Shown here one piece after another: positions 851 to 41,791 of a DNA stretch of 64,000 nt. The DNA comes from Deroplatys truncata. Taxonomy: Eukaryota > Arthropoda > Insecta > Mantodea > Mantidae. The translations under genes were made by a program, and so were the position numbers. Under the pieces are notes generated by a model. The model saw only the letters and a list, made by a program, of their open reading frames with translations, was not told where the DNA came from and made no database searches. The DNA is taken from contig CM060984.1 in the NCBI GenBank assembly GCA_030765065.1, positions 104,265,488 to 104,329,487 on the forward strand, in the 5' to 3' direction. Numbering within the stretch: the first letter of the stretch is position 1; the number at the start of each line of letters is the position of its first letter.

Positions 851-1165
851 TAACATATTCTATTATCTTTCCTTTCTTGGTTAAGAACCTCACTTATTCA
901 TAATTTGTTATTTCTGTTTTGTACAAATTAAAATTTACCCAAAGTCAAGATATTGCCAGGATAAGCTGCGGAGTTGATCTCACATAGGAGAGATTTAGGT
1001 ATGGGGCAATGAACAGCGTTATCAAAAAATGAGGAATCTTTTTATTTTCCTTAAGTAAAATTATTATTTAAATGGAATTATTCATATTGTTCTCACTTAA
1101 TTACAATACAAATAGCCGAAATTTCTTTATGTCATCTGATATTTAAAAATTACAGTAATACTTTT

Positions 1166-1760
1166 TTACTTTCTGTACCACGTACATATTAAGCACAGAA
1201 GGTATTACATTCCACTCAAAAATGGATACCGAGATTTAACCGGAAATACATGTTTTGAGGCCCCATGAATTACAAAAAAACATTTTTAGAAACAAAAATT
1301 CACGTGTGTGTGTTTACGAACAGCATAGCTCAAAAACCAAATGTGGGATAAATACCAAATTTGGTATTTAAGTTTAATAACATCCACAAATACGACATAT
1401 AGGGTAGTGTGTATCCCCTAACTCAAACTACCGTTTACATGGAACATTATTATAAAGATTTAGTTTTCTCAGAAATGGCTATAACGATTTTGATTAAAAT
1501 GCGATATGTTTTCATGGCAAAGGAAATGCATATCTTGAATTTTCTGGGAAAAACCCCAAAGTCCTCTTCATTCTGAATAAGTTTTGTATAACTCGTAAAC
1601 CGTAAGAGATAAACAAAATTTTATTACACAAAAATTGTAGATCTCGTTAAAACACACAATTAGTCATATACTGTTTTGTCTAGTGAACCATTTCCGAAAT
1701 ATTCTTTGTTATTTGTTTGAATTTTCCAAAATTCTCAAACGGAAAATAATCCACTAAAGC
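1166..1760 (+). mobile_element. HLN repeat copy 1 (DINE-1/helentron-like), older, 3' truncated
   Basis: It starts with a diverged left end (TTACTTTCTGTACCACGTA), followed by the block typical of this family (ATTCCACTCAAAAAT, GGATACCGAGATTT, ACATGTTTTGAGG). A much shortened GTGTGTGT microsatellite at 1304-1311 and the second block follow. Similarity fades after about 1760, so the right end with the hairpin is missing. See the copy at 8366-9151 for the full layout. Confidence 0.7.
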
Positions 1761-7505: not shown

Positions 7506-8365
7506 ATCCACTAGGCTTTAACTTTTTTAACTGTATAAATCCAGAATCCAGTGGATAACGAAAGTTCTCAGCACATGCTAAATCTCTCAAAAATCTCTCT
7601 TGATCAAAATTGAGGCAAGTTATGCGCAAAATAAAATAAGGATGGTTTTCCATTCAAAACGTTGTATGGTATGAGAGGTATTCAACAAAAATATTTGCCT
7701 TGCAATCCCGAAGGATGACATATCTAAACGCGTAATTTGATACTCCTCGTTATTTCGATAATGTCGGCTTCTTTCTTTCTCTCTCGCTTTCAAAAGCATT
7801 TTCTTCTCTTTATTCTCCTCCTCCTCCTCCTGCTGCATTCCATGGAATACGTTTACTTTCCCGTTCCGGCTCACAGATTCTTCCAGCGTTTCCGGCATCG
7901 CTCCCTTTCTTTTATTCCTCCCGGTATGTAGTTAAAGGCTGCTTTGGAAAGCGTATTTTCTTGCATTATTTGAAATAGTCAGTTTAGTTCTGTATTTTAA
8001 TATTTATTTTATTGTTCAGTGATTCTTCTTTAAGCTTCTCTTATTGCATCATCGTTTCTTACTCGTGCTAATCTGATGCAGCCTTTAGTCCATCTCAGGG
8101 AGTTCAGTTCCACGGACGTATTAGATTAAATTGCTTTTAATAATTAGGTCTCATTCCCAATCAACAAAGTAATCTTTGTAATTACTTGGCATGATTTGCT
8201 TTTTTCTTGTTTTAGTTTTAGCATTCTTTATGTGGTGGCACTAATTCCTTGACTTCGGTTTAATTTAACTTCAATTTAATTATTTTTAAAATATTTTACA
8301 CAGCTATACGCTTAAACTTCGTTGAACTGTATTTTCTGCTGTAACATTTTTGCTTTATAGCCTTT
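7506..8365. other. AT-rich stretch with short (CTC)n run
   Basis: Contains a CTCCTCCTC run at 7814-7833 and pyrimidine-rich DNA around it. The overlapping frames on both strands (7737-7931 plus, 7620-7898 minus) reflect that low complexity. No gene was recognised. Confidence 0.5.
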
Positions 8366-9151
8366 TTACTTTCTCTACTACGTACAGTAAGTAGGGGAAG
8401 TATTGTAATCCACCCAAAAATTCGATACCGAGATTTCACCGGAAATATGTTTTGAGACCCCCTGAATCCAAAAAAAGCATTTTTGGAAACATATCCCTGT
8501 GTGTGTGTGTCTGAACAGCACAACTCAGAAACGAAGTCGGATAAACACCCAACTTGGTATCTTCCAGAGATGCGACACGAAGGTTTTCAAGAAAATCCTC
8601 CCACCCCAGATTACCCTTTACCTGGAACATTTTTCGAAAATTTTAATTTTCTCAAAAATTACTATTTTGATTAAAATGTCATATGGTTAAGATATTTTCA
8701 TGACAAATGAAATGTATATCTCGAATTTTGTGGGAATGTCTACAAAAGTATTCTTCATTGTGAACGACTTTTGCATAACTGGTAAACCATAAGAAATGGA
8801 CAAAATTTTACTACACAAAAAATGTAGATCACGTTAAAATACACAATTTATGTCATTTACGTTTTTTTTGTTGAGCGAACCATTTTCGAGATATTGCTTG
8901 TTATTCCCTTAAATTTTCCAATACTTTTTTTTCAACTGGAAATTCGTTAATTTTTTTTGTCCTGGTAATGCAAAGAGAATGGAATACTCCACATAGCAAC
9001 CAGCTCTTAAAATATTTGACTATCGCTTAAAGCCTAGCAATTCCCCTTGCATCTACAAGAAATTAGCAATAAGATTAACATCTCGATATCTCGATTGTAA
9101 AAATAGTTTGTACAAGAGTAGAGAAAGTCATGTGAGTGTAACACATCAGAT
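8366..9151 (+). mobile_element. HLN repeat copy 2, full length (type copy for this family)
   Basis: This is a near-complete young copy that shows the family layout. The left end TTACTTTCTCTACTACGTA contains the 11-bp sub-terminal repeat ACTTTCTCTAC and a small palindrome (TACTACGTA...TAGTAAGTAG). The first conserved block carries ATTCGATACCGAGATTTCACCGG and TTTTGAGACCCCCTGAA. A (GT)n microsatellite lies at 8500-8510. The long second block includes GATAGACAAAATTTTACTACAC-like and CACATAGCAACCAGCTC-like pieces. The right end has GTAGAGAAAGT, the inverse of the left repeat, followed by a hairpin ATGTG-AGTGTAA-CACAT and CAGATTTT. Block, microsatellite, block, sub-terminal repeats and a 3' hairpin are the hallmarks of DINE-1/HINE elements mobilised by helentrons. 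Orientation is assigned by that analogy. No coding sequence is present. Confidence 0.8.
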
Positions 9152-9219
9152 TTTTATTAAATAGTTTTATGTTTCCGAACTGCACATTCCCTAAGCCGAG
9201 TTTATTATTTTAAAAACCT

Positions 9220-9974
9220 CTTATGTGTTACATTCACATGACTTTCTTTAGCCACTATCGTTTATTTGTATATAACTTCTACACACAATTTTTACGAAAG
9301 ATTATTTTATATCCATGTTAATAGATATAAAGCTTTGCTGGAATAGTTACATTGCACATTTTGTTGAAGGTAAAATAGGGATAGAAGAAACCGAATCGAT
9401 AATCAGAATTTAAAAGTGGCATTAAAATTCTATACCTTTTCCATGAAATTGCGGGCAATAACTGAAAAACGACAAGACAAAAGATCATGAAAATGATTAA
9501 AAATTTAAAGTAAAAATAATTGATATCTCGGAGATGGCTGATGTCACAATAAACGTTATTTGAAAGAAATTGTATGTTTTAAACAGTTTAGCATTCTTAT
9601 GCAATACGCAGGACTTTGCTGAATATTTCCATACATTTCGTCACGTAAATGCCTTAAAGCGATAGTACTTTAATCAAAATTAGTAAGAGCCATTAAGAGC
9701 CGTAGCCATTTTTAGAAAATAAAAAATTTCGAAAAGTATTCCATGTAAAGGGCACTTTGTTCAAAATCTTCGTGTCGCAACTTTTGAAGTTTCCGAACTT
9801 AAAACCATGAAATTTGGTATTTTTCAGGTTTTTCGTTTTGTAGTTATGCAGCTCACTAACAAACATATACATATATTTTTCTGAGAAGCTTTATTTTTAT
9901 TCAATGGTCTTCATAACGGTATTTCCGTGAAATCTCGATATCGAATTTTTGGGTTGCGCGTGGTAGAAAAAGTA
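9220..9974 (-). mobile_element. HLN repeat copy 3, older
   Basis: It lies immediately beyond copy 2, in the opposite orientation. The 3' hairpin end is at the left (TATGTGTTACATTCACATGACTTTCTTTAG) and the 5' end at the right (CGATATCGAATTTTTGGGT, GTAGAAAAAGTAA). Its divergence and the loss of the microsatellite mark it as an old copy. Confidence 0.7.
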
Positions 9975-11292
9975 AAAGGTTAACTTGTCTTTCGGGCTGA
10001 TCCAAAAATCTTATCAGTGGTTGAGCTTCATCTGAGTTGAATATGATGTTGAAATCACTACTCACAATCATTGACATTTTGTCCCGTTCTTTTTCCAACA
10101 ATTCTGCACCATTAATAGCGTAGGCCAATAAAACTATATGAATGAGTTCAATGATGTCATTAACTCTTGCATTTTTTTATATGTACATGACCACCATCAT
10201 AAACATCTGATCATTTTCTATTTGATATTTGGATGTAAAAATGTCACCAATTCCCATACTCAGCAAGCTCAGTGCATCGGCTACATGTACATTTATATCT
10301 ACATTAGGCCTCACGATATTCTTCCTATCATTGGCGTTTCTAACTGTGGAAGGATGATTATACGGGGCGGAATAATAGTCTACATGATCAGTTTGAAACC
10401 TTACATTATTTATAATAAGAAGCTCGCTAATACAATAATAATACTACGTGGTCAGCTAATGACAGTAGAACACACAAGCGTTTACTGCTCCCTATGCTAC
10501 GTCTATGCTACGTCCCTGTCTATGACGTATGCCTCGGAGAGAGTAGAAATGATTCTCCCTCTCTTTCTTTTCAACTGCCGCTTCAAGTCTCTCGATCAAG
10601 CCAACTCGTGCGTTTCGTCTGATCCAAGCCAATTTGCCCTACCGCACCTAAAGAAGTTTCACTTCAAAAATAATAGAAATAAATAGGTCAAAATCTGTTA
10701 ACACGTAGAACTGAGGGAACAGTTCAAGAATATATAAGTAAAACTTGATTGATAATTACAAACATGCTTTGTTCTATGAACCCTACACACTGAGATTATG
10801 ATTACTCCAAATTACTTGCAAAATAGGTGGAAGAAACCCGTTTAAATCGTCGTTAAGAAACACTAGAACTGTAAAGTATTCCATATTGTTTGCTATCCCC
10901 TGTATACGTTACGCGGCCAAAAGTAAAGACTGCTTGAGGCATGGGATATGCCCCCTAATGCATTTTTTGTTACCACCGAACAAACAAATGCAGATGCGAA
11001 TAATTAACATTCTCGTCAAGGACCAATTAGAAGTTCATCCCTCAGGCTAAATTCCGAAAGAAAGCAAATAACATTTTTTTAAAATATTTTCATTTTAACA
11101 TAATGCAAATAGAGAATAACAGCATTTATGCTAAATATGCAAATGGAACGAACGTAGATAATTATGAGTTGGTGCTTTATGAGAATATTAACTTGGCTGC
11201 TCTGAATCTGCATGCTTTAGAAATATGGCAGCAGCGTCAAATTTCTTCCATATTATGGTTTTATGGCAGCACTTCTACTTACTTTCATTTTA
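9975..11292. other. Stretch without recognised repeats; contains a 182-codon chance frame
   Basis: The longest open frame of the window (10138-10686, plus, 182 codons) is here. Its product is rich in I, Y, H and N with no domain, signal or repeat I recognise, so I treat it as chance. Inside it, CTATGCTACGT is directly repeated at about 10492-10514, with a third relative CTATGACGTATG just after. The rest is AT-rich and unassigned. Confidence 0.4.
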
Positions 11293-12152
11293 TTACTTTC
11301 TCTACTACTACTTATAGTAAGTAGAGGAAGTATTGTATTCCAGCAAAGAATTCAATGTCGAAATTTCACGGGAAGGACGTATTTTGATGCCCCCTGAACC
11401 AAAAGAAATTTTAAGTAAAGGTCCATGTATGTCAATGAACAGCATAACTCAGAAACGAAAAGTTCGATAAATACCAAACGTGGTATTAACTTCAGTATAT
11501 TCCATAGATGCGATACAAAGATTTGCAACAAAATAACCCTACCAAAAAATACCCTTTAAATGGATCACTTTTTAAAGAATTTGATTTCTTAAAACTAGGC
11601 TCTAAAGATTTTTATTAAAATACCATATGTTTAAGATATTTACATGAGAAATAAAATTTATGTCTTTAATTTTCTAGAAATATCCTGTAAAGTACACTTT
11701 ACTCGGAAGAAGTTTTGTATAATTTTGTACAACTAATAAGTTAAAAAATAAACAAATAGCACCAAACAAGAACCTAGACATTTTAAAAACACACAATTTA
11801 TTTCAAATAACTTTTTCGTGACATCAGCCATTTCCGAGATATCCATTATATTGCTTCAATTGTTCAGTACTTTGTAAAGCCCTATCGCTGTTCACATGTT
11901 TCTCGCGATGTTATGGGAAAGGTGTGGAATTTTAAAGCCACAGCGGGACCCTTTTAAACACCTGAATAATGATTCGGTTTCCTCAATCACACTTTACCTA
12001 CAAGAAAACGCAATGAAACTTCTGATTCTGCAAATGTTATCTCGATCAACATAAAGCAGATAGAAAAATAAGCTTTTGTAAGAATAGTTTGTAGCAGATA
12101 CATAAAAATAAGTGATAGCGGGTAAAGAAAGTCATGTGAATACAACACATAG
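11293..12152 (+). mobile_element. HLN repeat copy 4, older class
   Basis: The left end TTACTTTCTCTACTACTACTTATAGTAAGTAG and the right end GTAAAGAAAGTCATGTGAATACAACACAT are both present. The interior is of the older class (CGCGATGTTATGG, ACTTTACCTACAAG) and has no long microsatellite. Confidence 0.75.
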
Positions 12153-12339
12153 ATATGTTTTTAGATTTTTCTTAAATTTCTTTGCCTGTCCGTTACAGCG
12201 GATTAAGTATTGACCTGAATCAAATTTTTAATATCAAAATTTTACCACAAATAGAGAAAGATCAAGTATGCTTTGTCGCTTCACTTGAAAATTTTAGTCA
12301 GTAAGGAAAAAATTAAATTGAGTTTATTTATGGACGCTC

Positions 12340-12590: not shown

Positions 12591-13061
12591 AGTTTTAGTC
12601 AATGTGGAATATAAGGATCAAGATGTGGAATACAAGGATAATGAGAATGTGTGTTACTTGTATTGGTTCGTTAAGCTGTCTGTCTTTGGATATCTGCTGT
12701 ATTCTCTTTACAAAAACAAATAAAATAATTTATTGGTTTTTAATCCGGCCAGTCGTTTCCACCGAACAATGGATTTTTGTGTTTAAAGTTATTTATGATT
12801 TGGGACTATATAATCTAAAAGCCAGTTATTTTATGAAGCTAATAAATAGATAATAATAAGGAATAACTTATTAATCATCTGAGAGGAAATTATAGTTTCG
12901 TCTATAGTGCCACGAACATTTGAGACTGAAATGGTCATGTCCTAGTCTTGTAGTATAGTATATAACTATGCTGGTTCAGCAGCGTAGCCAGAAAATTACT
13001 AAGGGGGTTATGTGTAGGGATCCATTTATGAAATAATTTGTACCAATCAAATGAAAAAAAA

Positions 13062-13951
13062 ATCTGATGTGTTACACTCACATGATTTTCTCAAATCTTG
13101 TACAAACTATTTTTACAAACTCTTATTCTCCATCTATTTCATATTAATTGAAATAAACATTTGCAGAAACGATCTTTTGACATGCAAACTGAATTACATT
13201 TTACACATAGCGACCAGTTCTAAAAATGTTTGACTATCGCTTAAGGCATACTATGTTCCCCTTGTTTCGTAATTGCAAGGGCAATATAAAAAGACAGTAG
13301 CCTTTAAGCACAGACATATCTCTTAATAGCTGGTTGCTATGTGCAGCACCAGAAAAATAAATAACGAATTCCCATTTGAAAAAAGTATTAGTGTTGGAAA
13401 ATTTAAGGGAATAACAAGCAATATCTCTAAAATGGTTTATTTAAAAAAATGTATGGAAAATAAATTGTGTATTTTAACGCGATCTAGATTTTTTGTGCAG
13501 TAAAATTTTGTCTCTGTTAAGGTTTACCAGTTATGCAAAAGTCGGTCACAATGAAGAATACTTTTGGAGACATTCCCAGAAAATTCGAGATATACAATTC
13601 ATTTGCCATAAAAATGTCTTAAATTTATGGTATTTTATTCAAAATTGTTACAGCTAGTTTGAGAAAATTAAAGTTTTCGAAAAATGTTCCATGTAAAGGG
13701 TAATCTGGGGTGGGGGAATTTTCTTGAAAACCTTCGTGTCCCATTTCTGGAAGATACTGAACCTAAATACCAAGAGTGGTGTTTATCCGACTGTTCGTTT
13801 CTGAGTTATGCCGTTCACAGACACATACACGGAAATGTTTCCAAAAATGCTTTTTTTGGATTCAGGCGATCTCAAAACATGTATTTCCGGTGAAATCTCG
13901 GTATCGAAAATTTGCAGTACTTCTACTTACTATACATAGTAGAGAAAGTAA
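13062..13951 (-). mobile_element. HLN repeat copy 5, full length with an internal inverted duplication
   Basis: The 3' hairpin end is at the left (TCTGATGTGTTACACTCACA) and the 5' end at the right (TACTATACATAGTAGAGAAAGTAA). A segment around 13200-13265 (CACATAGCGACCAGTTC...TATCGCTTAAGGC...GTTCCCCTTG) is in reverse orientation relative to the rest. It is followed by the normal-orientation version (GCAAGGGCAATAT...GCTGGTTGCTATGTG), so part of the second block is duplicated head to head. Confidence 0.75.
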
Positions 13952-14799
13952 TATGAATAAATTCTGCGTTGAAATATTTAAATAAATCGAAATAAATTTA
14001 AATAAATATTTAAATAAATTAATTCACAGATTAAGGTGCAGCAATTGTAATTAAAATTGCGATGGGATGTTTCGCTAATTCTAAATGGTAAATGTGTGTA
14101 ACATGCGAATTAAGTATGTGTGAAGTATTTTGTATTGCTATAATTTTATTTCCCTACAAAATAGGGTTCTAGTTATGTTCTAAACTGGGAGATATTGCTC
14201 TCATTTGGAAACCACTTAAATTTAGCACTGGAACGAAAACATGACTACGATATCTAAACATGGTTATACTAATGCCATCTCAATTAGTTTCTGTTGCCGT
14301 CACTTTTGTCGATATTGTCTTAGATATGCTGCGTAAATATAACGCTACCAGTGATACGGTTCATCTCATAATAAACAATAAATCTATTTAAGTTAATCAT
14401 TATATGTATTAGGAAGTATCTCGTTCCCGCCAACCTAGAAAAATGCTATTATTTTAACGAAGCAATGTTTGCTATTCATTTTTAGATTTTTTAGTGAGAG
14501 GGGGTGTCCAAACCCAAAACCTCTCCCTAGTTTTGTCCAGCCTCAGTGCTGGATACATATGTACTTAGCAAGTGCTGTTTTTCATTTCTTTAGCGTGGCA
14601 CCGTCGCCTGTAAGTGGCGGTATCTGGTCTGCTTTTGCCTAAGTCAAACCTTAAACGACAGAAACAACGGGCAAGTTTTGCTCTCAGGCATACCCACTTT
14701 ACTCAACTATTTTTTTCAGAGTCCTGCCGTGGAGCTTTGTTACCTGCCGCGGAAAGTGCCCAGTTCCATCACATCCATGAGATTGCGGATTTTAAGTCC
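13952..14799. other. Unassigned stretch
   Basis: It begins with short AAATAAAT repeats and is then AT-rich. From about 14590 to 14800 GC content rises, and a 64-codon plus-strand frame (14614-14808) runs into the SINE that follows. No known motif was found. Confidence 0.4.
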
Positions 14800-16376: not shown

Positions 16377-16426
16377 TTTACACTGAATTAAAGAGAAAAT
16401 TCAAATTTACAAGAGTGCAAAAAAAA

Positions 16427-17473
16427 ACTGATGTGAAACGTTCACATGACATTCCCTACCCTCTATCTTTATTTGTGGATATACAAACTCTTCTTACCAA
16501 AGCTTATTCTATCTACTACTTTTTAATCCAAATAGCTACAGTACACATTACGGTTGGTCGCGTAGCTCAGTTGGTAAAGCTCCTGCCTGCTATGCGATGG
16601 ATTTCGGTTTCAAACTCCGGCTGGAGGGTAGAAATTTTTTTGTAGCCAGGATCATTGCCTATCCTCCCCAGAGTCTATGAAGTATGAATGAGAGTGTAAA
16701 TGTGAGTGTAATTTAATGATTAAAATACCCAAAGGGCAAAAAACCCAACGAAAAGCGAATACGAGTTAACACCATTGCCTTATGTAATAAGTTTGAAAGG
16801 AAAGACCGCCGATAAGACCTATGTAGTTAAAGGCGAGGTATAAATGGAACTCTGAAAACAATACACATTCCGTTATAGATAAAGGGAACAGCTATAGTCA
16901 AATGTTTAAGAACAGCTATATGCTGGCCTTAACATTCCACACTGTTTCCATGCAATCGCGAGAAACAGCTGAATGTTGACAGCACTTTAAAATAACAACA
17001 GAGTATTGAAGAACTCAAATCTTTAATAAAGAATACCTTACGTTTTCGTCTTTCGCATAACGTTTACCAGTTAGATATGCAAGTTTATGCAGAATTTCTT
17101 CCGAATGAGGAGGAATCCAAAGGCTATTCGTAAAACATTCCAGATATACATTTTATCTGTCATGTAAATATCTTTCATTTATGGTATTTTAATCAAAATC
17201 GTTAGTCACTTTTTAGAAACTAAAAATTTTCCAAAACTTTTCCATGTAAAGGGTAGTTGGGGTTTGGGGAATTTTCTTGGGAACCCTTGTGTAGCATCTT
17301 TGGAAGATGCTGAACCTAAATACCAAGTTTAGTGTCTGTCTGGCCTTTCGTTTTTGAGTTATGCTGTTCACACAGGCAGCCTCAAAACATCATTTCCAGT
17401 GAAATCCCGGATCGAATTTTTGGGAGGAATACAACACCTTCTCTACCTACTATGCACGTAGTAGAGAAAGTAA
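16427..17473 (-). mobile_element. HLN repeat copy 6, older, split by a SINE
   Basis: It has the older-class 3' end at the left (CTGATGTGAAACGTTCACATGACATTCCCTACCCTC) and the 5' end at the right (CTACTATGCACGTAGTAGAGAAAGTAA). The element is interrupted at 16555-16861 by a tRNA-SINE. Its own sequence resumes at CATTCCGTTATAGATAAAGGGAA. Confidence 0.75.
16555..16861 (+). mobile_element. tRNA-derived SINE (family B) inserted in HLN copy 6
   Basis: The head is strongly tRNA-like: GGTCGCGTAGCTCAGTTGGT (A box TAGCTCAGTTGG) and GGTTTCAAACTCC (B box), at normal tRNA spacing. A body of about 230 bp follows (GCCAGGATCATTGCCTATCC, CCCAAAGGGCAAAAAACCC). It is bounded by an imperfect duplication of HLN sequence, TACACATTACGG at 16542-16553 and TACACATTCCG at 16862-16872. 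This supports insertion by retroposition after the HLN copy was in place. Confidence 0.75.
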
Positions 17474-18108
17474 AAATGTCACATTTTAGCAATGTTCACC
17501 ATTTAATCTCCCCTTAAACGACAATTTACTGCAGATAAACGCGCTGTAAATGTCTAATGCTGCAAGATAAAACATTAGAACACAACAGAATACAATAGTG
17601 ATATTATGAACTTGTTTGCTTTTAGCCTGAGCCGCAGGGTACTTGCAACTTTTCTACTTACTGGAAACTTTTCCCTTACCTCATTAGCACCACACTCATT
17701 AAGGGCTTTTATGCTTCCATATGAACACGTATCTCATGTTTGTAATTACATTCCGTGGAGTAATGCACGGAATATATTAATGTTGCTTCCATGAGCAATA
17801 TATTAACCTACTTACGTTTGTTTGAAAAAAGAAGGCGCCACAGCCTTAATGGCACAGCCACCCGATTTGTAATCTGGTTGGGTAAGCGCACGAGTATTCG
17901 TGCCATTAATGGATTTCAAACGATGAAACCAATTTCCAGCCATCTAAAATATCAAACGCTGTTATAGCTAATTTGCTTTGCAGATGTGTACACGTTTATG
18001 TTCGAAATGCGTATTTGCATTTTATTTTCATGTACTTTTTTATTATTTTCATTATCTATGCTTTAGAAACCCTTCAATTTTTAATTTTCCTAGCAGCTAT
18101 TGGACTAA
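17474..18108. other. Unassigned stretch around the tRNA-like relic
   Basis: Apart from the tRNA-like piece I see only AT-rich DNA with two 62-codon frames (17606-17794 and 17973-18161, plus) of no recognisable content. Confidence 0.4.
17829..17910 (+). mobile_element. tRNA-like relic (tRNA-Thr-like) or SINE head
   Basis: GGCGCCACAGCCTTAATGGC, CCCGATTTGTAATCTGG and GCACGAGTATTCGTGCC fall in tRNA order. TTTGTAA would be the anticodon loop of a tRNA-Thr (TGT). The anticodon stem has two mismatches and the acceptor stem is not closed, so this is not a functional tRNA gene. It is more likely a SINE head or a decayed tRNA. Confidence 0.4.
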
Positions 18109-18250: not shown

Positions 18251-18475
18251 ACTTACTAAGACTATTCCGTGAATAAAATGTAACACATTCTATAAACAAT
18301 AATCACTATCTTAATTGTGATCTTTAAAGTCAGATCACAAATTGTGCCAGCTGTAAGATCAGGCAATCTAAATGAACGAACAATCGAATGTGTTACGGAA
18401 TACAAACCAGTGCTACTAACATGGAATGAGAAAATGGTTAACCTCAAAATTAAGTTAACACATTAAAGACACTTT

Positions 18476-18629
18476 TTACTTTCTATACTACGTATAGTAA
18501 AGGGGAAGCACTGTATTCCACCCAAAAATTCGATACCGAGATTTCACAGGAAATACATGTTTTGAGGTGCACTGAATGCATATAAAGCATTTTTGGAAAC
18601 ATGTCCGTGTGTGTGTCTGCCTGTGTGTG

Positions 18630-18660
<31 letters not shown>

Positions 18661-19138
18661 TATGGCAAATGAATTGTATATCTTGAATTTTCTGGGAATG
18701 TCCCCAAAAGTATTCTTCATTGTGAACGACTTTTGCGTAAGTGTAAACCATAAGAGATAGACAAAATATTATTATACACAAAATGCAGATCGCGTTAAAA
18801 TACACAATTTGTCATTTATTTTGGTTGAGTGAACCATCTTTGAGATATTACTTGTTATTCCCTTAAATTTTCCAATACTTACACTTTTTCTCAAATGCGA
18901 ATTCGTTATTAATTTTTTTTTTGTCCTGGTAATTGAAAGAGAATGGAATACTCCACATAGCAACCCGCTCTTAAATTATTTTACTATCACTTAAAGCCCA
19001 CCAATTCCCCTTGCATCTACAAGAAAATTAGCAATAAGATTAACATCTCGATTAACATGAAGCTAATGGAGAATAAGCGTTTGTAAAAAGTAGTTTGTAC
19101 AAGAGTAGAGAAAGTCATGTGAGTGTAACACATCAGAT
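18476..19138 (+). mobile_element. HLN repeat copy 8, deleted at the microsatellite
   Basis: The left end is intact (TTACTTTCTATACTACGTATAGTA) and the right end is intact with hairpin (GTCATGTGAGTGTAACACATCAGA). The microsatellite is long and mixed (GT, GCGC, GT; about 18606-18660) and is followed directly by TATGGCAAATGAATTG. The normal CTGTGAACAGCATAACTC...TTTTGATTAAAAT segment of about 200 bp has been lost precisely at the repeat. Confidence 0.8.
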
Positions 19139-19370
19139 TTTTTTAAAGAAAACAATGTATTTTGAATCTGACATTTTTTGAATACACATTGATTAAAAAC
19201 ACAATTTTTTAAAAGTTGAAAGTTTAAGGAATCTGCTGGTTTTCGATAGTGACAACTTTAATTGAAGTTGAGGTATAGCAATTTGTAATTCCTCCATATT
19301 TGATGAACAGTGAATTGATTTGTCTGCAGACATGGCTTCAGTGCAGATGCGTTGGCTTGATCTGTTATTT

Positions 19371-19898
19371 TTCACTTTATCTACCACGTACTAAATATGC
19401 ATAGTACGTACTACACTCACCTTAAAGACATGTTTTTGGGACCCCTTAATCCAAAAAAAGACATTTTTAGAAAATGTTCTTGTGTGTGTCTGTGAACAGA
19501 ATAACTTAAAAACGAGAAGGCGGATCAACTTAACTTTTTGTTGAACCTGGTTTTAGGTTCAGTACCATCCACAGATGAGATACAAAGATTTTCAAGAAAA
19601 TTCCAAACCAAACTATCCCTTACATGGAAAATGTTTTTGAATTTTTTTATTTTCTAAAAGAATGGCTCTAACGATTTTGATTACAATACTGTATATTAAA
19701 GATATTTACATGAAAAATAGAATTTTCTGGGAATAATCTACGAATTCCTCTTCTTTCAGAATAATTTTGTATAATCCTGTATAATTAGTAAACGTTTCTG
19801 CAAATGTTTATCTCGATTAATACGAAGTAGTAGAGAATAAGTATTTGTAAAAATAGTTTGTACAAGGGTAGGGAAAGTCATGTGAGTGTAATACATCA
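19371..19898 (+). mobile_element. HLN repeat copy 9, internally deleted
   Basis: It starts TTCACTTTATCTACCACGTACT and ends GGTAGGGAAAGTCATGTGAGTGTAATACATCA. The middle jumps from the TTTTGTATAA...GTAAACG region to TTTCTGCAAATGTTTATCTCGATTAA, so about 250 bp of the second block is missing. Confidence 0.7.
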
Positions 19899-20234
19899 CA
19901 ATGTTTTTATGCATTCTACAGATTAAACCCTATTTTATAGTTTTGGTTTTGGGTTTACAATTTAAAAATAATTAAACTAGTACAGTTATTTACATTTTAC
20001 AATGTTCTGTGGATGTGATGAATAAGTTTTATAAAATACTTATAACAACATCTTCCACTATCTTTTATACAATGGGTTTATAAATTGGTTTAAATGAAGT
20101 TTAAATGAAGTTTCAAACAAACATTTAGCTTTGATTGTTACCTAACCGTCATCCGTTTGAGAATTCTTTATCATACACTTCGTATTACATGATGTTTGTA
20201 ACATGAATACAAATATAATATTCCGTAATGCATT

Positions 20235-22103: not shown

Positions 22104-22134
22104 TCCTGTATGGGCTCATTCGTAAAAAAAAAAA

Positions 22135-23443
22135 TCTGATGCTTTACACTCACATGAATCTCTCTACTCTTGTACAAACTATTTTTAGAAACGCTTATTC
22201 TCTGTCTACTGCAAGTTAATCGAGATAAACATTTGGAGAAACTTATTGTTAATTTTCTGGTAGGTGCAAGGGGAATATGGTAGGCTTTAAGCGATAGTCA
22301 AAACTTTTAAGAGCCGTTTGCTATATGCAGCATTTCATTCTCTTTGCATGTCCAGGACATAAAGAAACGAATAACGAATTCCCTTTGGGAAAAGTATAAG
22401 TATTGGAAAATTCCAACAAATAACAAGGAATGTCTCGGAAATGGTTCACTCCACACAAAAAAACGTATGACACAAATTCTATGTTTGTGTAAAAATGTTG
22501 TCTATCTGGGTTTATCAGTTATGCAAAAGCCATTCAGAATCAAGAGGACGTTTGGGGACATTCCCAGAAAATGCAGGATATAGATTTCATTTGTATAAAA
22601 ACATCTTTAGCTTATGACGTTTTAATCAAAATCGTTAGTCATTTTTAAGAGAATAAACATTTTTGAAAAATGTTTCTATAAAGGGTAGTTTGGAGTGAGG
22701 GGATTTCCTTGAAAATCTTCGTGTTGCATCTTTGGAAGATACTGAAGCTAAATACTGTGGCATGTGCACAGATTATGTATTGGTAATGTGCCCTCTGGTT
22801 ACCCAAGTTGAAGGTTGGCAGTTTATCTGAGGAGGGGTGTTTAAGGGGAAACAGTCTCATTGGAGGGGATATGGCGTTAGTGACGCCAAGTTTAACGAGT
22901 TTTCTCAAGTCAGTCTGTTACTAGTCTTCGCGGTGTTCAGGTGAACGGATAGCTGCTCTACGACATGGCGTCCTCGTCCCGGCAGACACATGGGGTAAGT
23001 CTTTGTTGAATAAATCTATTTGTCACTCTTCCTTCCAGCTTTTATTATGGTAGAATAGAATCCTTGCCTCTCCCTTCAGCCAGGAATTATATTAGTGTAA
23101 TTATGTTGTGAATTTTAACTTTAGCTGCGTCCCTTTGTCGGTGCCTCTTAAATTAAAGTTTCCTTTGTTTGAATAACGATCCCTCTCGCAGCGAGTTGCC
23201 CACCACTGAAGTTAAATAATTAATTACAAAATGTGAGGCACGCGACAATACCAAGTTTGGTATTTATCCGACTTTTCGTTTTTGAGTTATGCTGTTCACA
23301 GACATACATCCACACAGAGTTACATACACTTTTTTTTGGAATCAGAGAGCTTTAAAACCTGTATTTCCGGTAAAATCTCGGTATAGAATTTTTGGATGAA
23401 ATGGAATACTTCCCCTACTTATTACACGTAGTAGAGAAAGTAA
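22135..23443 (-). mobile_element. HLN repeat copy 10, split by a solo LTR
   Basis: The left part is 22135-22755 (3' hairpin end TCTGATGCTTTACACTCACA through GAAGATACTGAAGCTAAATAC). The right part is 23248-23443 (ATACCAAGTTTGGTATTTATCC to TTACACGTAGTAGAGAAAGTAA). The two parts join exactly to the uninterrupted family sequence once 22756-23247 and one ATAC are removed. Confidence 0.85.
22756..23247. mobile_element. Solo LTR (492 bp) inserted in HLN copy 10
   Basis: It starts TGTGGCATGTGCACAG and ends GAGGCACGCGACA (TG...CA) and is flanked by ATAC at 22752-22755 and 23248-23251. A 4-bp duplication with TG...CA ends and no internal coding region is what LTR-LTR recombination leaves behind. A GTTGAATAAATC near 23008 could be a polyadenylation signal, which would favour plus orientation. 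A Ty3/gypsy origin is suggested by the 4-bp duplication but not shown. Confidence 0.8.
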
Positions 23444-23489
23444 TAATCATCATAAACAATAATACAGACATTTGAAGTTGCTTTGATTC

Positions 23490-24745: not shown

Positions 24746-24751
24746 GAAAAA

Positions 24752-25591
24752 TCTGATGTGCTACACTCGCATGACTTTCTCTACTCTTGTAAAAACTATT
24801 TTTACAAACGCTTATTCTCCATATGTTTCATGTTAATCGAGATGTTAATCTTATTGCTAATTTTCTTGTAGGTGCAAGGGGAATATGGTATACTTTAAGC
24901 GATAGTCAAATCTTTTAAGAGCTGGTTGCTATGTGGCGCATTGCATTCTCTTTGTATGTCCAGTACGTAAAAAGAATGAATAACGAGTTCCCATTTGAGA
25001 AAAAGTATTGGAAAATTTAACGGAACAACAAGCAATATCTCGAAAATGGTTCACTCAACAAAAAAAATATATATATGACAAATTGTGTATTTTAACGCGA
25101 TCTACATTTTTCTGTAGTAAAATTTTGTCTATCTCTTATGGTTTACCAGTTATGCAAAAGTCGTTCACATTGAAGGATACTTTTGGAGACATTCCCAGAA
25201 AATTCGAGATATACATTTCCTTTGTCATGTAAATATCTTAAATATGTGATATTTTAATCAAAATCGTTAGCCATTTTTGAGAAAATCAACATTTTCGAAA
25301 AATGTTCCATGTAAAGGGTAATCTGGGGTGGAGGAATTTTCTTGAAAACCTCCGTGTCACATCTCTGGAAGATACTGAACCTAAATACCAAGTTTGGTGT
25401 TTATCCGACTTTTCGTTTCTAAGTTATACTGTTCACAGACACACACACACACACACACAGACATGTTTCCAAAAATGCTTTTTTTGGGTTCAGGGGGTCT
25501 CATAACACATATTTCCGGCGAAATATCGGGATAGAATTTTTGGGTGGAATACAATACTTCCCCTACTTACTATACGTAGTAGAGAAAGTAA
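24752..25591 (-). mobile_element. HLN repeat copy 11, young, full length
   Basis: TCTGATGTGCTACACTCGCATGAC is at the left and CTATACGTAGTAGAGAAAGTAA at the right. The (CA)n microsatellite is at 25439-25460. Confidence 0.85.
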
Positions 25592-26110
25592 AAATACGAG
25601 ATATAATCTTAAAATACGCAATTCTTGTTCGATTGAAAATAAAGTCATACATTAGAGAACATGGGTACAGAAATTTTTGAAACATTGCTAATAACTTTAT
25701 AATCCCAATGTTTTTAAAAATATTAAATTCTGGATTTTTAGGACGTACTGGATTGTATTGCGACGCAGTTATGGGCCTCAATTATGGCGCAGAAGGCGTC
25801 GACCCAGAACCACAAAGTGCTAGTTCTTCGACGGAGTTGTGTGGCACAATGAATACTGTACTGCGAGAGATTAGAGAGACATTGTGTTCGTAGCAAGTAA
25901 AGCAGAAGGAAGAGTCTGCTTTGCAAGTGTTTCCTTACTTTGCTATCTTGCGAGGAAAGGTAAAGTGACAACGAATACTTAACTAGATCAAATTAGTGAA
26001 GCGACGGTGAGAACTGAACCAAATAACATTTGTGAACTGATAATGAAAACTATACAAAGTCACAGTATTCTCAGGTATACCTAAGTGTGTGCGTATCGAA
26101 AACTCTTATT
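25592..26110. other. Unassigned stretch with weakly protein-like frames
   Basis: Plus-strand frames at about 25708-25970 read pieces such as TMNTVLREIRETLCS followed by VKQKEESALQVF after a stop. They vaguely resemble the acidic C-terminal part of MADF/BESS-type proteins encoded by some transposons. The support is too thin to call a gene. Confidence 0.2.
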
Positions 26111-30394: not shown

Positions 30395-30465
30395 ATACGA
30401 GATAAGAGCATCGGCACGGGAAATGAGGACCCTTGACTCGAACCGCGACCGTGGCATTGAATTTG
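30395..30465 (-). mobile_element. tRNA-like relic
   Basis: On the minus strand a B-box-like GCGGTTCGAGTC is preceded by a degenerate A-box region (CCGATGCTCTTATC lies on the wrong side for a perfect tRNA). It is a weak SINE-head remnant beside HLN copy 13. Confidence 0.3.
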
Positions 30466-30466
30466 T

Positions 30467-30916
30467 ATTTTCTCTATTACTTACCTATAGCAAGTAGAGG
30501 CAGTAATGCATTCCGCCCAAAAACTCACACCAAGGACTAATCAGAATTACAGATTTGAGACTCCCTGAATCCAAAAAGGTATATTTAGAAACAAGCCCCA
30601 GTGTGTTTGTGAACAGCATAACTTAAAAACAAAAACTCCGTTAAATACCGAACTCGTATTTAAATACAATGTCCTCCGAAGACGGGACACGAAGATTTTG
30701 AATCAAACCCCTCCACCCAAAACTACCCCTTACATGTGAAAATGTTCGTTATTTATTTTCTCAAACATTTCTTTAAGTATTGTGATTAAAATACCATGAT
30801 ATTTACATGAAAATTAGGTAAAATGTGTACTCTGAATTTTCTTGTGTAGACCTCTTCATTCTGAATTACATTTATATAATTGGTAAACCGTAAAAGATAG
30901 ACAAGGACTTACCACT
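30467..30916 (+). mobile_element. HLN repeat copy 13, 3' truncated
   Basis: It starts TTTTCTCTATTACTTACC and keeps the first block and part of the second (GTGAACAGCATAACTTAAAAAC, CTACCCCTTACATG, GTAAACCGTAAAAGATAGACAA). It is cut at 30916, where a copy in the opposite orientation starts. Confidence 0.7.
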
Positions 30917-30921
30917 AAAAC

Positions 30922-31634
30922 ATCCGATGTGGCACATTCACATGTCTATTCCCATTTATCTTTTATTAGTGGGTATACAAATTATTCCTACTAAAGCTAT
31001 TTTTCTTCTTTTCCACATTTTAATCCAAATAAACCTTTGCAGAAATAGCTACATTACACATTTCATTATAGATACAAAGGGAATATGGATAGTCAGATAT
31101 GTAAGAACTACAACATATATGCAGACCTTAAAAATCCACACTGTTTCCATGCAGTCGCGAGAAACAACTGAATGTTGAAAGGACTTTTAAGAGAATGACC
31201 AAGAATGAAAAATTCGAGCATTTAATAACGGATATATCAGAAACGGTTTATACCACAAAAAAACTTATTTTAAATGGATTGTGTCTTTTAAAGAGATCCA
31301 CATTTCTTGTACAGTACGTCTTCGTCTATCCCTTAACGTGTACCAGTTATACAAGAAGATTACACAGAATTTCTTCCAAATGAATTGGACTTCACAGGCT
31401 ATTTCCAAAAAATTCAAGATACACATATTATTTTTCATGTAAATGTGTTTGATATATGGTGTTTTAATAAAAATTGCTACAGCTGGGGTGGGGGATTTTA
31501 TTGAAAATCTTTATGTCGCATCTTTGGAAGGTATTGAACTTAAATACCATGTTTGGTGTTGATTGGACTTTTCGTTTTTGAGTTATGCTGTTCACAGAGA
31601 CCACACACACGCCCACACGGACATTTTTCTACAA
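30922..31634 (-). mobile_element. HLN repeat copy 14, broken at the microsatellite
   Basis: The older-class 3' end is at the left (TCCGATGTGGCACATTCACATG). The copy proceeds normally to CTGTTCACAGAGACCACACAC and stops. The next HLN copy, in the same orientation, begins within 30 bp. Confidence 0.75.
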
Positions 31635-32316
31635 ATCTGAAGTATACATTCACATGATTTCTTCTCCCTCTATAGTTTATTAGTGGTTACACAAATTATT
31701 CTTACTCAAGCTTATTTTTCTATCTACTACATTTTAATTCAAATAAACCTTTGCAGAAATAGCTGCACTGCGCATTTGCTATAGTTACAAATAGAACACC
31801 GATAGTCAATTCTTTAAGAACTGGACGCTATATCCTGGCCTTAAAATTCCATACTGTTTCCATTCAATCCTTAAAAACAACTGAATGCTGAAAGACTTTA
31901 AGAGAATGGCCAAGAAATGAATAATTCGAACTTTTAGTAAAAGATATTTCAGATACCGGTTATGCCAGAAAAAAACTGATTTTAAATAAATTCCGTGTTT
32001 TAAAGAGATCTCAGTTTTGTGTAGTATATTTTCGTCTATCGCTTAACGTTCACCAGTTACATAAGAATTCATAGACTATTCCTCGAAAATCCAAGATATG
32101 CATTTTGTCATGTAAATGCCTTTAATATATGGAACCTTACTCAAAATCGTTAAAGCTATTTTTAGAAAATAAATTTAGAAAAGTCTTACATGTAAAGAAC
32201 AGTTTAGGCTGGGGGATTTTGTTGAAAATCTTCATGTTGCATCTTTGGAAGATATTGAACCTAAATACAAGTTTGATATTTATCCGACTTTTCGCTTTTG
32301 AGTTATGGTATTCACA

Positions 32317-32353
<37 letters not shown>

Positions 32354-32593
32354 AAACGTCTTTTTAAAAAAGTTTTATTTGATTTCAGGGGCCCTCAAAA
32401 CGTGTATTTTGAAGAAATCTCAGTATCCAATTTTTGGGTGGAATGCAATACGTCTCCTGGTTACTCTATGTATAGAGAAAGTAAATTTTTTTATTCAGGG
32501 GCCCCAAAACATGTATTTCAGGTGTAATGTTGATATCGAATTTTGTGTGGAATGCAATACTTCCCTTACTTACTATGCGTAGAGAGAAAGTAA
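31635..32593 (-). mobile_element. HLN repeat copy 15 with duplicated terminal block
   Basis: It runs from TCTGAAGTATACATTCACATGA to CTATGCGTAGAGAGAAAGTAA. It has a long (CA)n at 32319-32350. The terminal block is present twice in tandem, at about 32392-32484 and 32492-32593, each with GGGGCC..CAAAAC, ATGTATTT and a GAGAAAGTAA end. Confidence 0.8.
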
Positions 32594-32596
32594 AAA

Positions 32597-33200
32597 TGTA
32601 GATATGGTTATAGCTCACAATTTATGTAAAACGTTTTATGAGTTAACTACTTCCGAGTTATCAATTACTTATACTTTTTTTTCAAGTGGTAAACCCTATT
32701 CGTTTTTTCTCATGGTCGTGCAAAGGACCGTCACATAGCTACACTTCTTCTTTCTCTATTTACCCTTCCCGTTGTTGGGGCATAACACCCTCCCTAGACT
32801 TTCAAGTGGGTGTCTGGGGCCAGAAGCCTGTCGGGGAACTCATCAGAGAGAATGTCAGAATGTGTGATCAACCCGAAGCTTGGTATGAGACCGAGGAGCA
32901 GATGCTACGAAATGGTGAGATGAATGAAAGTAAAGATGATATGGAGCAATTGGTGGAATGAATGACGACGGAAACCGGAGATCCTAGAGAAAACCCGCCC
33001 AGATGCCGCTTTGTCCACCACAAAACCCATATGCGGTTCCCTGGGATTCAACCCGGGCCGCCTTGGTGAGAGGCGAGCTGTCTACCCACTTGGCCAGGGC
33101 GACGCTTATCACATATCTAAGCGCTATTTAAACACCTATCACTTTAGCCTAATGCATCCTTCTTATACCTACAAAGGAATGTTTAAATGTATAATGAAGG
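32597..33200 (+). mobile_element. HLN fragment (copy 16) split by a SINE
   Basis: TGTAGATATGGTTATAGCTCACAATTTATG, TCCGAGTTATCAATTACTTATACTTTTTT and TGGTCGTGCAAAGGACCGTCACATAGC are second-block HLN sequence. It is interrupted by the SINE at 32745-33112 and resumes as TCACATATCTAAGCGC...ACCTACAAAGG. Confidence 0.6.
32745..33112 (-). mobile_element. SINE family C, copy 2, inserted in HLN
   Basis: It matches 23650-23985 from the tRNA-like head (GGGTTGAATCCC B box read on the minus strand) through GGTGGACAAAGCGGC to the 3' part (GTTGGGGCATAACACCC). HLN sequence TCACATAGC / TCACATATC on either side looks like the target duplication with one change. Confidence 0.75.
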
Positions 33201-33224
33201 TTTGTCTTTCTTAACAATAAGGAG

Positions 33225-34025
33225 ATAGATACATTCACATGACTTTCTCTACCCTCTATCTTTATTAGTGGGTATACAAACTATTCTTAATAAAGCTTAT
33301 TTTCCTATGTACTACATTTAATCTAAATAAACCTTTGCAAAAATAGCTACATTGCACATTTCGTTATAAATACAAAGACAACAGCGATAGTCAAATGTTT
33401 AAGAACTGCACGCTATATGCTGTTCTTAAAATGCCATACTGTTTCCATGTAATTGCGAAAAACAACTGAAAATCGTTGGGACTTTAAAAGAATAACAAGT
33501 ATGAACAATTTGAACCTTTAATAACGAATATCTCAGAAACGGTTTATGCAACAAAAAACTTATTTCGAGTAAATTGTGTGTTTTAAAGAGATCTACATTT
33601 TTGTGTGTTACAAGTTATAAAGATTATATAATACTCCTCCCGAATCAGGAGAACTTCCTAGGTTGCTTCCAGAAAATTCAAATTCATTTCATGCAAATAT
33701 ATTTCATATAGGTATTTTAATCAAAATCGTTTTAGCCATTAAAAAAATTAAAGTTTTCGAAAAATATTCCATGTAAAGGGTAGTTGAGAGTGAGGGGGAT
33801 TTTCTTGAAAAACTTTGTGTTGCATCCTCGGAAGATATTTAACTCAAATACCAAGTTTTGTATTTATCCGACTTTTCGTTTTTGAGTTATGCTGTTCACA
33901 TAGAGACACAGGCACGGACATGTTTCCAAAAATGCTTTCTTTGGACTAAGAGCACCTCAAAACATGACTATTTCCGGTGAAATATCGATATCGAATTTTT
34001 GGGTGGAATATAATACTTCCTCTAC
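33225..34025 (-). mobile_element. HLN repeat copy 17, older class
   Basis: ACATTCACATGACTTTCTCTACCCTCTATC is at the left. The right end is cut within the terminal hairpin (TACTTCCTCTACTACAAG), so the final GAGAAAGTAA is missing. Confidence 0.75.
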
Positions 34026-34679
34026 TACAAGTCTGATTAAAGTTGCCGTATACACGTAATTCACGGAAATTACATAGCGCTATATTATAATAAATATAGG
34101 ACAGCAGTTTTAGCCTGTTCTGAAACAAATCTGACACTTTAACTTTGTCGTATATATATTAAGAGCAACTGCTGCTATAAAACGTAACTAGTAAAGGCAA
34201 TTAGCTTTGCCGTACGTGTTAGGCCAAAGACGGGAGGTAGCTAACGCTACCCCCGATTATAGAAACAAAAGCAGTAATACCAACATCAAAGGCAAGCAAT
34301 ATAATATCGTGCTGCGCTCTATTTGTGATCCCTTAACTCTCTCGAGCGGAAGTAATATAAAATTAAATCCCACGGTGCTAATGTGTTGCAAAATATAGAG
34401 CCGAGGATCGTGCGAGTTTGTTCCAAAAATTATGAAGCAAAATATGAGCTGTACTGCGTCGTTCGCCGCCGGAAGTTCAGTTATCTGTTACTCCTGTGTG
34501 CCGAGAGGTTATTATCGTCGCCTTTAGAGCTTTACACCGGCAGAGAAAGCGCAACTTGGCTTCTCACTTTAGCTACAAGTGAAAGTGTCTGCAAATTTTG
34601 AAAAGAAGTTTCATTGTTACGCTGTAACAGAAGCCTTCGTGTTCTACAGATTTTACATAGGAATGGAATCACTTAAACT
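34026..34679. other. Unassigned stretch
   Basis: It contains a short palindrome-rich part (GGGAGGTAGCTAACGCTACCCCC at about 34240) and a 72-codon plus frame (34383-34601) with no known motif. Confidence 0.35.
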
Positions 34680-34865: not shown

Positions 34866-36208
34866 TATTCAAAAGAACTGTCAGCAGATTCGAGCAATGC
34901 GGCTCCAGATATCGAAATGTCCGAGAATTCTGAATCTTTATTTTCTTTTTATACTTCATATAGTAATAATCGCGGTTTCTACATAATCCTTACGCAAAAT
35001 TTACGCAAAGTTCAACAAATTTAAATGTTTTATTCGATAGATTATGCATTTGAAAACATGTTTCCAGAGTATTATGTTTGCACTCTGCCTCGTAAGTGCA
35101 TTTAAAAATCTAAATACCTAAGCGTTGCAATTGCGACATCACCCTTTCCCTCCCCCATTTTCAGATCAGGCAAAATATTACTTTACTCACATTTAACTAA
35201 TATTGAATTAAAGCATTAAAAGCTTTTGGAGAATTTTAACAGGCCAGAGTTGCAAATTTTCTGTTTAGAAGTAGCCAAATCAATAGAGAATTATCACTTC
35301 TGTGCTATGGAGTTGTCCGGTTTTGATTGTAAGTACTACTTCAGAAATTGCCATTAGTGATTGAAACAAATAGGTTGGACAAGAAAAGAGCTAGAGAAGA
35401 TGCGGAAGATACCAGCTATTTATCTGGATCATTCTAACTTAAACAGAGGCTTGTGTAACAAAATATTATTTACTCCTCTAATTTTCCGTAAATAACATTT
35501 TTCAATAAATATTTATATTTTTCTGAAAAGTATTTGATAACACTGATTAGTCCAATGCCAATAAGATTTAAGTGTATGGAACTAAAATAATACAGATATT
35601 TTTGTACCACATGATTATATACAGTGAAAAATATTTATAAAATTTTCAAACATTTAAAAGTTTGACAAAAAAATTAAAATGAACTGCATATAAAAATTAT
35701 ACTGCTAAATCTTGTATTCATCTATATATAAGAAAAGTATAAAATTGCAGCATGATTTCATGATTAGTTTTGTAGAAAAAGGTTCATTTACAAGTAAGAA
35801 TTTTAAAATTTAAAATTTAAGAAAACAATTAAATTGTATTCTGGGTTAAAAAATTTGAGAATGTTTCTTATACTTCCTATAATACATAAGAAAATTTAAT
35901 TTCTGTACAATGAATAGTGTGGTAAATATAAATTATTTTGCATGACATTGTAATTAAGTATGCATCCCCACTTAAGCACATACAACACTTTTCGGCTAGC
36001 CTAATTCTTGTCAGTTTGTAGTTGCAACAAAATGACTATAAAGGAGGGACTTGAAATTACCAAATTTTTTATTACTGCAAATATTGCTCCTACTGTTTAC
36101 AACAGTCTATTGCTGCAATGAGATGTATACAAGCTAGCTTCGAGTAAATATAATAAGCAATGGCAAAAAAATAACATTTTAAATTATATATTTTGAAATA
36201 TGCATTTT
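34866..36208. other. Very AT-rich stretch
   Basis: No gene or repeat recognised. There are many short A/T runs. Confidence 0.5.
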
Positions 36209-37246
36209 TACTATCTCGACTAAATACTTACAGTAAGTAGAGGAAGCAAAATTGTAACCAATTTTGGAAGCAATTTTGCTTCCAAAACAAGCACGTTTAG
36301 AAAAAGGCCCTTGTGTGTGAATAGTATTTCTGAAAATCGAAAAATCGCTTCAATACTAAATGTGATATTTAAATTCAGCCTCTTCCAAGGATATGACACG
36401 AAGATTTTCAAGAAAATTTCCCCATATACAAGTATTGTTTACGTCAATAATTTCACTAAAATTTTGACTTTATCAAAAATGGCTCTAACAATTTTGATTA
36501 AGATGCCATAGATTTAAGATATTTCCAGGAACATGAAATGTAAATCTTGAATTTTCTGGGAATAGCCTTTTGAAGTCCTCTTCATTCTGAATGTTATATA
36601 GTTGGTAAACCGTAAGAGATAGACAAAATCTTACTACATAAAAATAGAAAAATGTAGATCTCGTTAAACTACATAACTTATGTCACATATTTTACTTTTG
36701 CGCTATTTTAGAGGTATCCCTTGTAGTTGGTTTAAATTTTGAAATATATACACTTTCTTCAATTGAGAAGTACTTTTTTTTTCTTTTTTTTAAACCTTCC
36801 TGGTGATGCAAAGAAAACGGTATTTCAAAGCCATCACATAGCGACCAGCGACCATTGCTTAAGCCTTATTCCAATTGTACCTACAAGGAAATATGTAATA
36901 AAACCACCTCTACAAATTTTTATCTCAATTAACATGAAATGGGTAGAAGAATAGACTTTTTAAGAACAGTTTGTTGAAGAATGGATAGGAAGATATGCGA
37001 ATGTAACGCCTAAGAACTTTTTTCGCCTGGTCATACAAAGAGTACGGCATTTCAAAGTCAGTACTTAGAGACACGCTCTTTAAACATGTGACTATCGTTT
37101 TATCTACCGTAGACTACAATGAAATATGTAAATGTGAATTGAACGTTTATGCTATTAACAAGAAGTAAACAGAGGGTAATGTTGTTTATAAGAATAGTTT
37201 GTGGGAGAGTGAGTAGAAAAAAAATGAGGTAAGTAGAATACATAAG
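36209..37246 (+). mobile_element. HLN repeat copy 18, older, with small palindromic insert
   Basis: It starts TACTATCTCGACTAAATACTTACAGTAAGTAG and ends GAGTAGAAAAAAAATGAGG...ACATAAGATTTT. Near the start GGAAGCAAAATTG / CAATTTTGCTTCC forms an imperfect inverted repeat (36242-36287). The right part (36900-37246) contains a second copy of the AACATGAA..TAGAAGAATA section, so the 3' portion is partly duplicated. Confidence 0.65.
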
Positions 37247-37661
37247 ATTTTAACTATATATATATATATATTAGACTCGGAACAGATACTGTATATACAA
37301 ACGTAAAAACCTAAAGGACAATGTACATCTTCTGATAAAAATCCATCCTTTCTTAGAATTTAATTTTAGACTATCTTGCCGACATTTCATCATCCCATAA
37401 CATCGTATTCTTTATCTGATTGTTGAAAGCATTCTTGGTAACAGAAATCAGTCAATGAACAAATACTACAAGAATAAGAAGTAAAATAGGAAAGCATTAA
37501 GTTTTGTTGAGATTAAATGTAAAAAAAGAGATTATGAGGAGGTCAGTAATTTGGCTGGCCAAAATACGTTACACGTATTTCACTAGATCTGGAGAAGATT
37601 TATTTTGGAAGAGGTAACGCCTGTTTTGTATTTCAATGCGCTCCTAAAGATAAGCAAATAA

Positions 37662-41298: not shown

Positions 41299-41424
41299 TT
41301 TCTAAGTTGTGTTATTACTCCTATGTTTTGAAGCTAACGCAAAGAAGCTACAAAACAGCTGTTTCTACATGTGAAATATAGAAGATATTTTTAGTTACTT
41401 GGAACAACGGCTTGACAAACAAAA

Positions 41425-41743: not shown

Positions 41744-41791
<48 letters not shown>

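Follow-up and report, generated by a model that had tools for sequence, protein, structure and literature searches.

About one third of the window, the whole 64,000-nt stretch of Deroplatys truncata DNA analysed here, is made up of a dispersed repeat of about 0.8 kb. Matches to two consensuses, A (854 nt, built from 10 copies) and B (872 nt, from five), form 46 non-redundant stretches that total 21,640 nt, or 33.8% of the window. Once interrupted pieces are joined, 29 copies or fragments remain, equal to 32.9% of the window; five short or weak consensus matches (7022-7080, 18078-18239, 26109-26202, 29167-29397 and 30159-30281) lie outside this count. The original prediction of a dominant family with about 31 copies or fragments, occupying about a third of the window, agrees with these figures, and the copy at 8366..9151 that it included is real, with borders in T-runs at ~8363-9155.

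Several searches delimit the family. With the copy at 8366-9151 as query, 47 matching stretches (18,904 nt, the query itself counted) are found. When the reversed window is compared with consensuses A and B, 8 matches appear, and all 5 that were listed fall in the (GT)n tract. The 11-bp motif ACTTTCTCTAC occurs 44 times in the window with at most one mismatch, compared with a mean of 1.37 and a maximum of 5 in 100 shuffles, which makes it about thirty times commoner than in shuffled sequence. Searches of the window with fixed 32-nt end sequences yield 21 left matches (two overlap at 11290) and 21 right matches; the reversed window yields no match. The sequences that bound the family are TT(T/A)TTACTTTCTCTAC on the left and GTAGAGAAAGTCATGTGA...CACATCAGATTTT on the right.

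Element anatomy

The reference copy at 8363..9155 (+) is a complete member of subfamily A with a K2P distance of 0.039 to consensus A; its left end reads TTTTTACTTTCTCTAC and its right end GTAGAGAAAGTCATGTGAGTGTAACACATCAGATTTTT. All of its features lie on the plus strand. Five Ts precede the 5' subterminal inverted repeat (subTIR) ACTTTCTCTAC at 8368..8378, and the inverted repeat GTAGGGGAAGT (8391..8401), which starts 12 nt past the 5' subTIR, folds back on it to form a left-end hairpin. A (GT)n microsatellite at 8499..8509 separates two conserved blocks. The 3' subTIR GTAGAGAAAGT (9118..9128), 26-27 nt from the right border in this family, is followed at 9130..9146 by a hairpin of the form ATGTG-loop-CACAT, ~9 nt from that border.

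Consensus A has the same order throughout: 5 nt (usually TT(T/A)TT), the 11-bp subTIR, a loop and GTAGGGGAAGT, then a block of ~100 nt, (GT)n of variable length and a long second block, and finally the 3' subTIR, the ATGTG...CACAT hairpin, a few nt and a T-run. The subTIR pair ACTTTCTCTAC / GTAGAGAAAGT is present in both consensuses after 5 nt. Its arms match perfectly in 5 of the 21 copies with two ends and have at most one mismatch in 13 of the 21; the copies at 54048 (+), 32596 (-) and 32485 (-) have 5-7 mismatches, with a decayed or misplaced 3' arm. Pure GT runs, measured within nt 80-260 of each copy, are up to 34 nt long and are absent from some copies. The architecture first described for the family, with an 11-bp sub-terminal inverted repeat, a palindrome near the left end, a hairpin directly after the right repeat and two conserved blocks around a (GT)n tract of variable length, is thus recovered in all its parts.

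The two hairpins were assessed in alignments of 22 left ends (the copies at 9977 (-), 19369 (+), 34031 (-), 57246 (-) and 60210 (-) and the weak piece at 18078 (+) were left out) and of 22 right ends, 20 of them distinct (without 34031 (-), 36205 (+), 37018 (+) and 54048 (+)). Pairing between GTAGGGGAAGT and the 5' subTIR in the 12-bp left hairpin holds in 87.3% of 260 cells, against 49-62% in slid controls; the 5-bp right hairpin is paired in 89.9% of 99 cells (controls 5-57%). Two pairs of the left hairpin are changed on both sides, which 158 of 500 shuffles also reach, while its covariation score is reached by 13 and its share of paired cells by 31 of 500. No pair of the right hairpin is changed on both sides, and all 500 shuffles reach the observed values. 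Single folds of two left ends surpass those of shuffled sequences (z -3.3 and -4.3), and those of two right ends are unremarkable (z 0.2 and -1.0). Because compensatory changes are scarce in the left hairpin and lacking in the right one, the alignments speak for conserved arms more strongly than for folding.

Copies in the window

Besides the reference copy, complete copies of subfamily A lie at 24747..25594 (-) and 60677..61476 (-). Both ends are also present in the subfamily A copies at 40509..41301 (+), 41421..42305 (-; with a (TA)n tract at 41747-41788), 52051..52861 (+), 58789..59614 (-) and 63133..63988 (-). Further members of this subfamily are found at 13057..13954 (-), at 18473..19143 (+), where there is an internal deletion, and at 22129..23446 (-), where a solo-LTR-like insertion (22756-23247) splits the copy. 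Subfamily B is represented by copies at 9206..9977 (-), 11290..12163 (+), 16419..17476 (-; broken at ~16535-16858 by an insertion that is tRNA-like by eye), 33211..34031 (-; 5' subTIR lost) and 37656..38520 (-), the last of which is complete and belongs to B over its length.

The remaining copies include one without a right end at 1163..1745 (+), one with an internal deletion at 19369..19906 (+) and two old pieces side by side at 36205..37251 (+; 36205-37017 and 37018-37251). Fragments of the 3' part lie at 55853..56189 (-) and 62906..63132 (-), the latter adjoining the copy at 63133-63988, and a fragment of the 5' part lies at 59630..60210 (-). The copy at 54048..55077 (+) is split by another element, and copies sit within copies at 30462..32725 (+) and 56329..57880 (+); these are described below. 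Tandem repeats inside the copies comprise (CA)n at 32313-32351, the (TA)n tract mentioned above, a 25-bp unit in 1.9 copies at 56081-56126 and a 109-bp pair at 32384-32594.

Insertion into T-runs

Flanks and subTIRs were tested in the 21 of 29 copies with both ends located; those at 1163 (+), 30462 (+), 34031 (-), 36205 (+), 37018 (+), 56189 (-), 60210 (-) and 63143 (-), in which an end is missing or unclear, were omitted. The three copies with a decayed 3' subTIR have a right anchor that could be off by a few nt. On the left flank, T occupies position -2 in 21/21 copies and position -1 in 20/21, and the T excess is gone from -6 outwards; on the right flank, T predominates over seven positions. 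The ends read TT(T/A)TTAC...ATTTT and abut T-runs. Canonical Helitrons begin with 5' TC, end with 3' CTRR and insert between A and T, according to PMC4067079. Derivation of the family from canonical Helitrons, which share the rolling-circle logic, a 3' hairpin and the lack of a target-site duplication (TSD), is very improbable, since its ends are not of the TC...CTRR type and its target is a T-run instead of A|T.

Consistent TSDs had been named as one sign that would refute a helentron-like family, and at the 21 copies they are absent. The mean longest word common to both flanks is 1.62, as it is in permuted pairings (1.62; 255 of 500 permutations at or above the observed value), only words that contain at least two non-T bases being counted. 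The longest words at single copies are TTAAAGA (18473 (+)), TTTTGA (57246 (-)) and TTCAT (13954 (-)), and the average is no higher than under permutation. Flank words at the permuted level indicate that there is no consistent duplication, save possibly one of Ts alone. Insertion between T and T without duplication, as originally predicted, is shown at the level of insertion into T-runs without a consistent duplication.

Two nestings of copy within copy lie in runs of poly-T/poly-A, and no other sequence there is duplicated. In the three-level nest at 30462..32725, the plus-strand outer copy (30462-30916 and 32597-32725) is split by a minus-strand copy (32596-30917) in the run that corresponds to CACAAAAAATGTAG of consensus A, and the minus-strand copy is itself split by a third copy (32485-31633, also minus) in the run GCATTTTTGG. 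This arrangement explains the 109-bp tandem repeat at 32384-32594. At the junctions of both clean nests, a few nt of the outer copy deviate from the consensus. At 56329..57880, where an outer copy (56329-56450 and 57244-57880) surrounds an inner one (57246-56451, minus strand), ~40 bp of the outer copy are missing at the junction. The insertion site of the copy at 58789-59614 was sought by alignment and none was made out, and the copy at 63133-63988 has just 12 nt of flank left on one side.

Two inserts of other kinds serve as positive controls. Within the copy at 54048..55077, an element at ~54195-54358 with the end CAGTGGTGGCGAAAACG, which we take to be a hAT-like MITE, has GTGTACAG on both sides, an 8-bp duplication. 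A 492-bp TG...CA segment at 22756-23247, in the copy at 22129..23446, has ATAC on both sides, a 4-bp duplication, and is probably a solo LTR. Both names are assigned from features typical of these families, as are the lengths of 8 and 4 bp, which were picked from several overlapping shared words. These duplications demonstrate that the approach can detect TSDs where they exist. They bear on whether the family could instead consist of MITEs of a DDE cut-and-paste transposon, a class with which it shares short length, high copy number, inverted repeats and a non-coding nature, and to which such elements were previously assigned (PMC4067079). This reading is highly unlikely: the family's inverted repeats are subterminal, with an asymmetric placement, and none of 21 copies shows a TSD while the MITE-like insert in one of them has one.

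Two apparent similarities between flanks were considered and rejected. A common 3' flank of the copies at 19369 (+) and 56329 (+) (19796-20065 with 57770-58030) is partly the element itself, and the aligned flanks past the element end are unrelated by eye. A supposed transduced flank in the copies at 38520 (-) and 54048 (+) (38363-39211 with 54200-53367) is, by eye, a SINE-like repeat set apart from the end of the element.

Coding capacity and the autonomous partner

The longest stop-to-stop frame anywhere in the window encodes 184 aa. The longest frames of the two consensuses, 95 and 106 aa, are antisense and occupy corresponding positions. Across 29 copies, changes in the longest consensus frame number 322, 321 and 269 at codon positions one to three, with no third-position excess, and in-frame stops occur in 20/29 copies (frameshifts not counted). 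The lack of a third-position excess and the in-frame stops together give no sign of a gene in the family, in keeping with the original view that it has no coding capacity. The further statement that an autonomous helentron partner is absent from the window also holds, at least for an intact one, given the 184-aa maximum.

Pfam searches of 40 of the 75 frames of at least 80 aa, mostly outside the copies, listed no Rep, helicase or endonuclease. The lowest E-values, 0.0016 for DUF4817 (49179-49439, minus strand) and 0.0059 for PDU_like (55075-55428, minus strand), both fall below the curated cut-off. No Rfam family reaches its gathering score in the window. The sub-threshold DUF4817 match lies in an 87-aa frame at 49179-49439 (-); DUF4817 is a helix-turn-helix domain, and the frame may be a transposase remnant.

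Subfamilies and age

The family comprises at least two related subfamilies, A and B. Thirteen copies lie at K2P distances of 0.04 to 0.15 from consensus A; A is also the better match for another six (0.22 to 0.36), and B for ten (0.14 to 0.25). Several of the copies compared had themselves been used to build the consensuses. Divergence of young A copies from their consensus is fairly even from end to end (0.03 to 0.11 in bins of 60 nt). Identity between A and B is 91% over the left 360 nt (320/353 aligned), 72% over the following 420 nt (286/397) and 86% over the last 74 nt (64/74), a regional contrast that may be partly noise because consensus B was built from five old copies. Such a pattern could arise if the subfamilies were modular, with lineages that bred in each other's T-runs and swapped their left module when rolling-circle replication switched templates; we regard this as a speculative and rather improbable scenario.

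Class assignment and comparison with described elements

The family is very probably one of non-autonomous rolling-circle elements of helentron type (DINE-1-like HINEs). According to PMC4067079 and PMC7492417, such elements are non-coding, insert into T-rich sequence without a TSD and carry subTIRs, a microsatellite, a 3' palindrome and an inverted repeat nested in the 5' subTIR. Against these descriptions, the mantis family has an 11-bp subTIR after 5 nt (at least 11 bp, close to the 5' terminus, is described), a short inverted repeat 12 nt from the 5' subTIR (3-22 bp is described) with its 5' side nested in it, a 3' stem-loop, no coding capacity and T-rich insertion without TSD, a duplication of Ts alone being possible. 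The helentron-associated layout originally proposed is thereby supported, save for one spacing: the 3' subTIR lies 26-27 nt from the 3' terminus instead of ~38-60 bp, a distance that the consulted part of PMC4067079 gives as a description of mite families and not as a stated class criterion.

We infer a single-strand route driven by a Rep/helicase enzyme. The copies would carry only the signals needed for recognition by a Rep/helicase encoded at another locus of the genome: the subTIR and fold-back repeat at the left end and, at the right end, the T-run, the corresponding subTIR and a hairpin as the presumed termination mark. The enzyme would nick the T-rich end and peel off one strand as far as the 3' hairpin, and the peeled strand would then be joined into a T-run elsewhere with no duplication of the target. 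The partner might be of Helitron2 type, with Rep/helicase, no endonuclease and asymmetrical terminal inverted repeats, in place of an endonuclease-bearing Helentron, and copies would work alike in either case. Both ends of Helitron2 elements carry palindromes, and the endonuclease is lacking (PMC4067079); non-coding copies cannot separate the two partners. The combination of subTIR, nested inverted repeat, microsatellite and T-run is, however, the layout described for Helentron partners in PMC4067079 and PMC7492417, which leaves a Helitron2 partner unlikely, though deserving of some weight.

Three described systems come closest to the family in layout. Like the present family, the HINEs of the mite Metaseiulus occidentalis are non-coding, carry a 3' palindrome as well as subTIRs a few nt inside the 5' end, enter T-rich targets without a TSD and, in some copies, contain microsatellites (PMC4067079); they differ in the position of the 3' subTIR (38-60 bp from the end, compared with 26-27 nt here) and in subTIRs that are themselves palindromic without a separate inverted repeat, which is present in this family. 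Drosophila DINE-1/INE-1 elements share the subTIRs, the separate short inverted repeat whose 5' side falls within the 5' subTIR, the microsatellite, the 3' stem-loop, the TT preference and high copy number, but their subTIR is 13 bp instead of 11 bp; the likeness is one of layout (PMC4067079). Cg_HINE of Crassostrea gigas has a subTIR of 11-12 bp, a complementary inverted repeat of 7-12 bp, a microsatellite in the left part, a 3' palindrome and a T-rich target without TSD; unlike this family, it contains a central array of satellite-like units (PMC7492417).

Exact patterns of the ends and of the block after the microsatellite have 0 matches in viral contigs, and the right-end pattern has 0 in prokaryote genome contigs, results that say little because the scans were exact and the collections rarely hold animal DNA. 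In full-text literature searches with three end sequences, the matches listed concern unrelated subjects, judged by titles and the starts of abstracts, which does not establish that the family is unpublished. The motif does not occur among the matches listed for helentron/helitron literature, and no HINE or helentron from Blattodea or Orthoptera appears by title among the matches listed for those orders.

The window contains an ordinary, if dense, HINE population and a new family of a known element type, and the picture of the HINE class is unchanged by it. In this population, nested copies serve as empty sites, and they are consistent with T-run insertion that leaves no duplication. The description is useful for annotating this genome, because such repeats are easily misfiled as MITEs.

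Other repeats in the window

A dispersed repeat that is tRNA-derived-SINE-like by eye occurs in three copies, at 38521-39211 (+), 53367-54046 (-) and 55289-55747 (+), at which ARAGORN makes no tRNA call. ARAGORN does report a tRNA-Val (CAC) at 23907-23980 (-), possibly the head of another SINE, within a longer open frame. A frame at 23661-24104 has no relative in viral contigs. Dispersed repeat pairs outside the HINE copies link 2312-3213 with 46077-47066, 15558-16392 with 44022-44901, 29749-30114 with 43096-43476, 414-600 with 6771-6960, and 12398-12548 with 34695-34841. A tandem repeat with a 36-bp unit in 3.6 copies lies at 44359-44484.
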